DNA of 64,000 bases. Origin: Candidatus Neomarinimicrobiota bacterium (GTDB lineage Bacteria > Fidelibacterota > SORT01). The position numbers and the translations under genes were made by a program. The stretch lies in the NCBI GenBank assembly GCA_022573815.1, contig JACZTG010000004.1, forward strand, positions 1 through 64,000, in the 5' to 3' direction. Under the pieces are notes generated by a model. The model ran no database searches and was not told the DNA's origin. It was given only the letters and a program-made list of their open reading frames with translations. This document shows positions 30,965-34,158 of the stretch, piece by piece. Each line of letters opens with the position of its first letter. The first letter of the stretch is position 1.

Positions 30965-32764
30965 ATGAAAATCTTTTATCTAAATGGACCTCGTCTATTA
31001 AGAGCTCTTCTTGCCGGATCAGATTGGGTTATATCCCAAGCGGAATATCTTAATAAAATCAACGTTTTCCCGGTAGCTGATAATGATACCGGAACAAATA
31101 TGGCAATAACTCTCAAAAGTATTCACACCGCTCTGGTTAATTCGGAGGCAAGTTCGATTGAAGAGGTAAGCGGGACAGTTGCCGATTCAGCTTTGATGGG
31201 GGCGCAAGGTAACTCCGGAGTGATATTAGCTCAATTCTTCTACGGTTTTTCCGAAAATTTAACCGGTGAAGATAAAATTGACATTAAAACTTTTTCCTCA
31301 GCAATAAATAATGCTATAGAAACAGCCAGCAGCGCAATAGCTGACCCAGTTGAAGGCACAATACTTACAGTTATGAATGCCTGGGGGAAAGCTGTTGAAA
31401 CAGCATCGGTAAAATCACAAGATTTTGTTGATATTATACAGAAGTCGCTTGCTGAAGCAAAAATTTCTCTTGCGAATACTCCGAAACAAATGAAATTATT
31501 GGCAGATGCGGGAGTCGTTGATTCGGGCGCGCAGGGTTTTGTTTACTTTATTGAAGGTATTTATAATTATATAGATTCCGGTAACTTAAGTAATCTGCCA
31601 AAAGAGGTTGAAGATATAAAAATAAGTCATCCAAAAATTGAAATGGCTCCCGAAGATATAAAATTTCAATATTGTACGGAATGTATTGTATCCGGCTCGA
31701 ATATTAACAAATCAGAAATTAAAGAAAAACTCCTTAAAATCGGAGATTCATTGATTGTCGCCGGTTCTCCGAATAAAATTAAAATTCACGTCCATACCAA
31801 CAGTCCCGATGAAGTATTTGATATTTTACAACAATATGGAGAACTGATGAATAAGAAAATAGACGATATGAAAGCTCAGCATGTAGCGCAGTTTGAAGAT
31901 TCGGAAGCAGGAAAAATCGCTATTGTATCCGATTCGTCGTGTGATTTACCTGAAGAAATATTAAAACAACATAAGATTAGGATTGTTCCTTTACGAATAA
32001 ATTTTGGAACGGACTCTTACCTTGATAAAACCACAATGAACACAGGCGAGTTTTATAATATGTTCGAAGCGGCAGATGTCTCGCCCACCACCAGTCAGCC
32101 GACTCCGGCGGATTTCAAAAAAATATATGAAAGTGTAGCAGAAAAATCCAATCAGATAATATCAATTCATCTCACCGGTGCTGCCAGCGGAACCTTGCAG
32201 TCTGCTCAAGCAGTATCGAGGAATATAGCCGATACTGTCATTACCACAATTGACAGCACCACCACAAGCATCGCGTTAGGTCTTCTTGTTCGCTATGCCG
32301 CTGAATTATTGGAAGAAGGAAAATCGTATGATGAGATTATTCGATTGACCAGAAAGATGGTTCCAAATACCGAAATTATTGTTGGAATTGAGGATGTTGC
32401 GAATTTAATACGAAGCGGAAGAGTTCCTCTTTCAAAAGGTATTATAACCAGAGCGCTCAATCTACGACCGATAATCACCTTTGATGATGAAGGAAAAGGA
32501 AAACCCGTAACCGTATCATTCGGTAAAAAGGCCTTGGCGAAGAAAGTGTTCAAAACATTTATAAAAACTACTGGGGGCTTTACGAATTTAAGATTTGCGG
32601 TTGTTCACGCAAGAGCGTCAAAATCCGCCAAATGGATGGAACAGGAAATAAAATCACATTTCAATACGGACGATATATATATCATTGAAGCTTCCCCGGC
32701 TCTTGGAGCCCATGCCGGCTTAGGCACAATCGGCGCCGCATTTATAGGAGAACCGATAGGTTGA
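30965..32764 (+). CDS. Fused fatty-acid kinase: FakA (DhaL-like) plus FakB (DegV)
   Basis: Predicted cytoplasmic kinase that turns fatty acid into acyl-phosphate, 599 residues from the ATG at 30965. The open frame extends 25 codons further, but that stretch contains the promoter and no homology. Residues 1-205 form the ATP-binding DhaL domain, with DNDTGTN at 39-45 and MGAQGNSGVILAQFF near 75. Residues about 215-315 match the FakA middle domain, including YCTE and HVHTN that supply the Cys and His zinc ligands in S. aureus FakA. Residues about 318-599 are a complete DegV/FakB lipid-binding domain (SDSSCDLPEE, TTSQPTPADF, HLTGAASGT). The FakA C-terminal FakB-docking domain is absent and replaced by FakB itself. 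Confidence 0.88.
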   Translation: MKIFYLNGPRLLRALLAGSDWVISQAEYLNKINVFPVADNDTGTNMAITLKSIHTALVNSEASSIEEVSGTVADSALMGAQGNSGVILAQFFYGFSENLTGEDKIDIKTFSSAINNAIETASSAIADPVEGTILTVMNAWGKAVETASVKSQDFVDIIQKSLAEAKISLANTPKQMKLLADAGVVDSGAQGFVYFIEGIYNYIDSGNLSNLPKEVEDIKISHPKIEMAPEDIKFQYCTECIVSGSNINKSEIKEKLLKIGDSLIVAGSPNKIKIHVHTNSPDEVFDILQQYGELMNKKIDDMKAQHVAQFEDSEAGKIAIVSDSSCDLPEEILKQHKIRIVPLRINFGTDSYLDKTTMNTGEFYNMFEAADVSPTTSQPTPADFKKIYESVAEKSNQIISIHLTGAASGTLQSAQAVSRNIADTVITTIDSTTTSIALGLLVRYAAELLEEGKSYDEIIRLTRKMVPNTEIIVGIEDVANLIRSGRVPLSKGIITRALNLRPIITFDDEGKGKPVTVSFGKKALAKKVFKTFIKTTGGFTNLRFAVVHARASKSAKWMEQEIKSHFNTDDIYIIEASPALGAHAGLGTIGAAFIGEPIG

Positions 32765-33396
32765 CAGAATTACTAATTGTAATCGTCCTTAGCTATCTTG
32801 TAGGCTCCATTCCAAGCGCGATAATTGCGGCAAGATTAACAAGAGGTATCGACATCAGAGAGTATGGCAGCGGAAACGTTGGAGGCACTAACGCGCTCCG
32901 GACTCTCGGCTGGAAAATCGGAATGTCGGTGATGATATTTGATTTTGCGAAGGGCTGGTTCGCGGCATATTACATCGCTCAGTTAGGTTATACTAACGGA
33001 ATTATCGATCCTCTTATGGTACAAATTCTTGCCGGAAGTTTTTCGATTATAGGGCATATTTATACGCTGTTCGCCGGATTTAAAGGTGGAAAGGGTGTCG
33101 GAACCGCTGCCGGTATGCTCCTTGCTCTTTACCCGATTGCTCTTCTGTTTTGTTTTGCGGTATTTGCTACAACCGTTGTAACAACGAAGTATGTTTCACT
33201 TGCTTCCATGCTCGGAGCTCTCACATTGCCAATAAGCTTATATATTCATGAGCAGTTTTTTGAAGGAGATATTGAAATTGCGCGATATGTATTCGCAGTC
33301 CTTATCGTGTTTTTAATTTTTTATACGCATCGAAGTAATATTCAACGATTGTTAAAAGGCGAAGAAAATAAATTCAGCGCCTACAAAGCCAGCTAG
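32761..33396 (+). CDS. plsY: Acyl-phosphate:glycerol-3-phosphate acyltransferase PlsY
   Basis: Inner-membrane enzyme that transfers an acyl chain from acyl-phosphate to sn-glycerol 3-phosphate, the first step of phospholipid synthesis. The 211 residues have about five helices and the three PlsY motifs: GSIPSAIIAARL near 16, GSGNVGGTNALRTLG near 37 and GHIYTLFAGFKGGKGVGTA near 100. The start is TTG at 32761 within the overlap TTGA that contains the stop of the fused kinase, so translation is coupled. Its substrate, acyl-phosphate, is the product of that kinase. The end overlaps the convergent lipoprotein gene by four bases. Confidence 0.96.
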   Translation: MTELLIVIVLSYLVGSIPSAIIAARLTRGIDIREYGSGNVGGTNALRTLGWKIGMSVMIFDFAKGWFAAYYIAQLGYTNGIIDPLMVQILAGSFSIIGHIYTLFAGFKGGKGVGTAAGMLLALYPIALLFCFAVFATTVVTTKYVSLASMLGALTLPISLYIHEQFFEGDIEIARYVFAVLIVFLIFYTHRSNIQRLLKGEENKFSAYKAS

Positions 33397-33851
33397 CTTT
33401 CTTTCTCTTTTTTTCCGGCGAATAATTTTAAGCCTGCTTTTTTCCAAATCACCTCAAAACCTTCAATAGATAGCCCTTTTCTATCCGTCATAAGTCCTAT
33501 AGTTACAGTCTGACCGGGATTGACGAACCGCGGCAATGTTCCTCCCACCATAAAGACGTGCGCTAAATATCGCTGGGTCATCGTGTAATAATAGTACCGA
33601 TCGGTTTTATAATCAAACTCAACGGCTTTTCCTGATTCATTGATAACATAAATGATGTATCTGTCGCCGGGAAGAGCAAATCCACCGCTTGTTCTTAACT
33701 CGAAAAAGAGTTTGATACCTTCTTCTTCGACTTCAAAAACAGCGTTATCATATGATTTTGGTATAAGAGATCGTCCGCATCCGGCAAGTAAAAAGAGCAG
33801 GACTATCAGTGAACATATTTTAATTAATTTATTTTGCCCGGTCTGCAACAC
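33393..33851 (-). CDS. Lipoprotein of unknown function
   Basis: I do not recognise a family. The 152 residues start with a lipoprotein signal ending in LLAGC (Cys25). The rest is a predicted all-beta domain, with strands such as IKLFFELRTSGGF, RYIIYVINESGKAV and TVTIGLMTDRKG, possibly an immunoglobulin-like fold. The motif TMTQRYLAHVFMVGGTLPRFVNPGQ is distinctive. It overlaps the DUF971 gene upstream by 23 bases and the convergent plsY by four. An outer-membrane or periplasmic location is likely. Confidence 0.75.
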   Translation of the reverse strand: MLQTGQNKLIKICSLIVLLFLLAGCGRSLIPKSYDNAVFEVEEEGIKLFFELRTSGGFALPGDRYIIYVINESGKAVEFDYKTDRYYYYTMTQRYLAHVFMVGGTLPRFVNPGQTVTIGLMTDRKGLSIEGFEVIWKKAGLKLFAGKKEKES

Positions 33852-34158
33852 ATTCTTCGCATTGACAAAGTGACCTCAAAACATCGTATGAGAAGATACC
33901 CGAATCGTGCCTATCGGCCCAAACGGCCTGGATAGCATAATTCCCTACTTGACTCACCCCTACCAACTCGAACGCGTTTGGCGGGAGATTACTCGTATCT
34001 ATTGTAGGAGTGGTTTTCCCCCATAAATGTCCCTCTCCTTTGCAAGCGGCGCACGGACACGCTGTGCGGAGAGTAACAAAATCTATATATGTCTCATGGT
34101 TATCTGACCAGTTAATGGCTAAATCATTTGGTAATATTTCAACATTTGTCGGTTCCAT
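33829..34158 (-). CDS. DUF971-domain protein
   Basis: Small cytoplasmic protein of 109 residues with the DUF971 fold also found at the N-terminus of gamma-butyrobetaine hydroxylase. Seen: WSDNHETYIDFVTLRTACPCAACKGEGH with a CPCAAC cluster near 35, then VGNYAIQAVWADRHDSGIFSYDVLRSLC, ending in a second CQCEEC cluster near 100. The four or more cysteines suggest zinc or iron-sulfur binding; family members sit near iron-sulfur assembly genes in some bacteria. Function here is unknown. It overlaps the following lipoprotein gene. Confidence 0.88.
   Translation of the reverse strand: MEPTNVEILPNDLAINWSDNHETYIDFVTLRTACPCAACKGEGHLWGKTTPTIDTSNLPPNAFELVGVSQVGNYAIQAVWADRHDSGIFSYDVLRSLCQCEECVADRAK

Follow-up and report, generated by a model that had tools for sequence, protein, structure and literature searches.

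The closest described system is the two-protein fatty acid kinase composed of FakA (YloV/VfrB) and FakB, a member of the DegV family, which a review treats as a Gram-positive strategy (PMC10146087). In Staphylococcus aureus FakA, roles have been given to the nucleotide and metal residues Asn32, Asp38, Asp40, Thr41, Asn82 and Asp185 and to Cys240, His282 and His284 (PMC9136124); the zinc role of the latter three, located in the middle domain, is described in PMC11617999. The C-terminal domain (FakA_C) folds like FakB but lacks the tunnel elements (PMC9136124). FakB1 holds its ligand with a network of Thr62, Ser95, Ser171 and His270 together with Arg173, which is needed for catalysis (PMC8892158), and Arg205 of FakB1 (Arg202 of FakB2) serves both in docking to FakA_C and in the encounter with the membrane (PMC9136124, PMC8892158). 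The kinase turns FakB-bound fatty acid into acyl-phosphate, which PlsY uses to acylate glycerol 3-phosphate. FakA, FakB and PlsY convert oleate to lysophosphatidate (LPA) in vitro (PMC13400652). As described in PMC11617999, the mode of FakB delivery is disputed: either the kinase domain phosphorylates the fatty acid while FakB holds it, or FakB passes it to a pocket shared with the FakA C-domain.

Locus and domain architecture

The window (the whole 64,000-nt stretch of Fidelibacterota DNA that was analyzed) carries at 30965..32764, on the + strand, a gene with an ATG start and a TGA stop, here called fakAB. Its 599-aa product (P0001) comprises a DhaL (Dak2) ATP-binding kinase domain (residues 36-200; 31070..31564, +; Pfam Dak2, E 1e-36), a FakA middle domain for dimerization and zinc binding (residues 233-307; 31661..31885, +; Pfam FakA-like_M, E 1e-24) and a complete DegV/FakB fatty-acid-binding domain (residues 317-594; 31913..32746, +; Pfam DegV, E 5e-72). 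Only about 10 residues link the FakA-like_M and DegV matches. The start codon is backed by the relatives L034 and L035, which begin with MKIYYLNG, and the closest public relatives are from Marinimicrobia (now Fidelibacterota), at 71% identity.

The initial annotation had proposed that a FakA-type DhaL domain, a middle domain with its Cys and HxH residues and a whole DegV/FakB domain in the place of FakA_C are joined in one chain, and the Pfam and NCBIfam models confirm it. FakA_C, the FakB-docking domain that ends in the docking Glu, was not found in P0001 with these models; the DegV domain stands there instead. The NCBIfam YloV/FakA models are covered by P0001 over their first 60% or so only (to position 337 of 530 and 314 of 549), with scores below the cut-offs; the match ends with the middle domain, so the C-terminal domain of FakA is absent. 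The score against the DegV model TIGR00762 is above its cut-off (269 vs 99.7 bits), and the protein would thus be named a DegV family protein under NCBIfam rules. Because the architecture recurs in dozens of divergent homologues, chance, a frameshift and a wrong join in the assembly were rejected as its origin.

The next gene, plsY (acyl-phosphate:glycerol-3-phosphate acyltransferase; 32761..33396, +), begins with a TTG codon inside the fakAB stop, as had been noted, in a 4-nt TTGA overlap (32761..32764, +). Its product passes the family cut-offs (TIGR00023, 180 vs 137 bits; PF02660, 176 bits) and is the sole PlsY match in the genome. A small gene downstream, on the opposite strand (33832-34158, -), encodes a GBBH-like domain (PF06155) at the N-terminus of its product and has no evident relation to the module. 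A separate intact fakA and fakB elsewhere in the genome, which had been flagged as a sign against the fused enzyme, was not found: the genome has one Dak2 match and one DegV match, both within fakAB.

Kinase half

Residues N33 (just upstream of the Dak2 match), D39, D41, T42, N83 and D186 of P0001 correspond to S. aureus FakA Asn32, Asp38, Asp40, Thr41, Asn82 and Asp185, and Cys237, His275 and His277 (in an H275-V-H277 motif) correspond to Cys240, His282 and His284. Conservation was scored over 81 distinct fused proteins, in which departures were rare substitutions or ambiguous letters. The FakA-type Asn-Asp-Asp metal set and the Thr, Asn and Asp nucleotide contacts were kept in 78-81 of the 81, and the zinc residues in 80-81.

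Dihydroxyacetone kinase has the DhaL fold too, and P0001 gave weak matches to DhaL models. A kinase acting on dihydroxyacetone or another small carbonyl, its DegV domain serving for sensing or storage, was nevertheless judged hardly credible. The metal set (N33, D39, D41) is the FakA-specific one and not three Asp, the middle domain carries the Cys and HxH residues, the fatty-acid network is intact, and DhaK (Dak1) had no match in the window's genome. Identity as a dihydroxyacetone kinase was rejected on the missing DhaK and the FakA-type residues.

Fatty-acid-binding half and the docking arginine

Positions T376, S408, S484, R486 and H583 were aligned with FakB1 Thr62, Ser95, Ser171, Arg173 and His270. 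T376, Q378, P379, S408, R486 and H583, together with the kinase and zinc residues of FakA, were kept in 76 to 81 of the 81 fused proteins, and R486, the counterpart of the catalytic Arg173, is invariant (81/81). Loss of lipid-binding residues from the DegV part had been named as a warning sign; they are conserved instead, the carboxylate network included.

The docking arginine behaves differently. From the alignment, we take FakB2 Arg202 (numbered by structure-chain positions) to be the equivalent of FakB1 Arg205. This column falls on Phe519 of P0001 (codon 32519..32521, +) in an alignment uncertain by one residue, and no Arg is present at 517-522. The column holds F in 48 of the 81 fused proteins, L in 11, R in 6, W in 4, I in 3 and other residues in a few; 20 of the 21 free FakB/DegV proteins have R or K there. 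After thinning to 60% identity, R or K was present in 5 of 41 fused and 12 of 13 free representatives (Fisher p 2e-7, phylogeny ignored). A free DegV (L012) that is placed within the fused clade of the DegV tree has Lys in this column. A dock residue lost exactly where the dock domain is missing would be expected of a self-contained enzyme.

The same column bears on a second reading, in which the fused protein still works in the manner of FakA and receives loaded DegV domains belonging to other chains: in the dimer or a higher oligomer, one DegV would serve as a FakA_C-like scaffold while another presents the substrate, and tethering would not be the functional point. FakA_C and FakB do share a fold (PMC9136124), a trans-protomer arrangement has been predicted for S. 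aureus FakA/FakB (PMC11617999), and some genomes hold a pair of fused paralogues or have a split set alongside the fused gene. Against this, the docking arginine is mostly gone from the fused DegV domains, in the proportions given above, and the window's genome has a single DegV. This arrangement is unlikely in our estimation.

Predicted structure

An AlphaFold2 model of P0001, made with 27 aligned sequences, had a mean pLDDT of 84.5 and a pTM of 0.56; the single domains are therefore good and the interdomain arrangement is uncertain. In Foldseek searches of the PDB, the best match of the whole model was full-length Streptococcus suis FakA (7w7h_A; 615 columns, E 1.2e-31). The N-terminal part matched S. 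aureus FakA_N with TM scores of 0.91-0.93, and the DegV part matched FakB1, FakB2 and DegV structures with target-length TM scores mostly of 0.87-0.91. Because FakA_C is itself a tunnel-less FakB-like fold, the fused DegV domain is best regarded as a structural equivalent with full function and not as something unrelated put in its place. A profile comparison of FakA_C with DegV was collinear but weak (E 0.0016, probability 16%), and their kinship thus rests on the published structures.

Proposed mechanism

P0001 is very probably a genuine single-chain fatty acid kinase, predicted to make acyl-phosphate for PlsY. We infer that the protein is an active enzyme, that substrate is presented within the chain or across a dimer, that fatty acid is taken from the membrane and product released to it, and that the product reaches PlsY; the cycle would run as follows. 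The DegV part would pick up a free fatty acid at the inner leaflet of the membrane and bind the carboxylate through Thr376, Ser408, His583 and Arg486. DhaL, tethered to it and with ATP-Mg bound at N33, D39, D41, T42, N83 and D186, would then phosphorylate the carboxylate, either in the same chain or across a dimer formed via the zinc-stabilized middle domain. The acyl-phosphate would return to the membrane, where the co-translated PlsY could acylate glycerol 3-phosphate to give lysophosphatidate. With the carrier covalently attached, FakA_C would not be needed as a dock, and the docking arginine of FakB could be replaced, usually by a hydrophobic residue. The in vitro route from FakA, FakB and PlsY to LPA is why we read the two genes as encoding a one-chain kinase and an acyltransferase.

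Three points count against the single-chain kinase. An adjacent plsY was not found at 17 of the 81 fused loci. The uncertain interdomain arrangement (pTM 0.56) bears on whether the mouth of DegV reaches the DhaL ATP site. The S. suis model, as presented in PMC11617999, makes the FakA C-domain part of the active site, to which FakB hands the fatty acid over; a separate C-domain is absent from the fused protein.

Coupling to plsY and genome content

Adjacency of fakAB and plsY in related genomes, proposed as a check in the initial annotation, was found widely. At 64 of 81 fused loci, plsY is the next gene on the same strand, within 320 nt and mostly overlapping or abutting. Split runs also occur: Fidelibacterota family f4 and one genome of f29 have the order fakA-fakB-plsY (L066-L068) or fakB-fakA-plsY (L071, L072, L074, L075, L085). 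These three-gene runs in the same phylum support a Rosetta-stone argument that FakA, FakB and PlsY act together. The earlier proposal that the locus is a compact, stoichiometric module leading from free fatty acid straight to lysophosphatidate was supported in part: the domain reading, the link to FakA/FakB chemistry and the coupling to plsY stood; the fusion itself turned out to be no local curiosity, but old and phylum-wide.

One PlsX is encoded on another contig of the same genome, so the fused kinase is not the only source of acyl-phosphate. The kinase might instead mainly supply acyl chains for elongation or for other pools, with PlsX running in reverse to turn acyl-phosphate into acyl-ACP, or recycle fatty acids from lipid turnover, its proximity to plsY reflecting shared regulation only. 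Besides the presence of PlsX, this is favored by the 17 of 81 fused loci at which an adjacent plsY was not found and by Enterococcus faecalis, in which FakAB-activated acids become acyl-ACP and are elongated (PMC11586512). It was considered improbable, given that plsY repeatedly adjoins the fused and split arrangements alike and that two genomes with the fused gene (G013 and G020; 93% completeness) have no PlsX match.

Those two genomes and G010, all fak-bearing and without a PlsX match, range from 87 to 93% in completeness. Fatty acid kinase could be their main source of acyl-phosphate, or PlsX could be missing from the assemblies.

Distribution

Among 245 Fidelibacterota genomes, DegV was present in 123, and about 120 of 149 DegV matches (a manual count) lay in frames of about 600 aa that also held Dak2. 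No DegV or Dak2 match came from roughly half of the 245, the small-genome family f13 among them; part of the phylum therefore apparently lacks the kinase or has lost it. In the KSB1/Calditrichota phylum, DegV was found in 50 of 82 genomes, and nearly all matches were in fused frames of about 600 aa. In Bacillota (101 genomes), every DegV among the matches listed (about the 150 best) was free-standing, at about 270-340 aa. One Halanaerobiaceae genome, from this phylum, has a fused copy (L044) beside a split pair (L077), and in the DegV tree the DegV half of L044 groups with the second copies of Fidelibacterota.

Several variants were observed. Genus g83 has second fused paralogues (L011, L016, L020, L026, L029) beside another fused gene, and an adjacent plsY was not found for them. 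Two loci (L069:1714-4077, -; L070:1890-4253, +) encode a 787-aa protein in the reverse order, with DegV (4-307) ahead of DhaL (344-511) and of a region that resembles the middle domain and contains Cys and HIH. These are apparently an independent FakB-FakA fusion; both genomes also carry the forward one. In genome G195, of the same family as the window's genome, the fused gene is broken (L083:5363-6450, -), leaving a free DegV frame and plsY with a 64-aa DhaL/middle remnant upstream; this is either decay or an assembly error. In G165 and G167, fused genes (L080, L081) lie beside plsY with a much lower DegV score (about 125 bits) and many ambiguous residues.

Evolution of the fusion

A tree of the DhaL and middle domains set the split FakAs of Bacillota and Fidelibacterota apart from the fused proteins on a branch with support of 98/99 (97/98 when the reverse fusions and two long rows were removed); this tree was unrooted, its split sample was biased toward relatives of the query, and it does not give the order of fused and split forms. 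The fused domains also grouped in the DegV tree, where support for the deepest branch was modest (90/66) and L012 was the one free DegV inside. Fused status needs one change on the kinase tree trimmed in this way; a single old fusion behind the fused proteins is thus favored by these phylogenies. A recent local fusion was rejected, because the trees of both halves unite fused proteins across Fidelibacterota, KSB1 and Calditrichota.

More tentatively, the fused proteins may form an ancient class of their own among fatty acid kinases, one that works without FakA_C and in which the single FakB-fold domain of each kinase chain both holds the substrate and fills the position of FakA_C. The two-protein enzyme would then be related to it by duplication of FakB, one copy having decayed to FakA_C, a dock only. 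This is possible, but we would not lean on it. If it is true, the core chemistry is described by FakB presenting the substrate and not by the model that places the active site at the C-domain.

Comparison with known systems

A description of a natural FakA-FakB fusion was not found in a search of the open-access literature; domain databases may list the architecture. With a natural enzyme that has the binding protein where FakA_C would otherwise stand, the dispute over FakB presentation becomes directly testable on one purified chain. The distribution suggests that fatty acid kinase is used by a large Gram-negative group, with the kinase and PlsY genes coupled. A one-piece, lineage-wide enzyme encoded before the user of its product could help to settle the mechanism of the two-piece one.

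Fusions of DhaK with DhaL (e.g. glycerone kinase, dak_ATP) are a precedent for DhaL fused to an EDD-fold substrate domain. In fakAB, the domain order is the opposite and the substrate domain is different, and the window's genome lacks DhaK. DhaK and FakB are related through the EDD fold (PMC9136124).

The split fakA-fakB-plsY and fakB-fakA-plsY runs of other Fidelibacterota (L066-L068, L071-L076, L085) place the same three activities side by side. Unlike the fused form, FakA in these runs is a separate protein whose C-terminal domain resembles the one in Bacillota FakA (profile match, E 9e-45), and it groups with the Bacillota proteins in the kinase tree.

With the two-protein FakA/FakB of Gram-positive bacteria (PMC9136124, PMC11617999, PMC8892158), the fused protein shares the DhaL and middle domains, the ATP/metal and zinc residues, the FakB fold, the carboxylate network including the catalytic arginine, and the link to PlsY. 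It differs in being one chain without FakA_C, in carrying another residue in place of the docking arginine (FakB1 Arg205) in the majority of members, and in its occurrence in the Gram-negative Fidelibacterota and KSB1/Calditrichota, where it is usually encoded directly before plsY.
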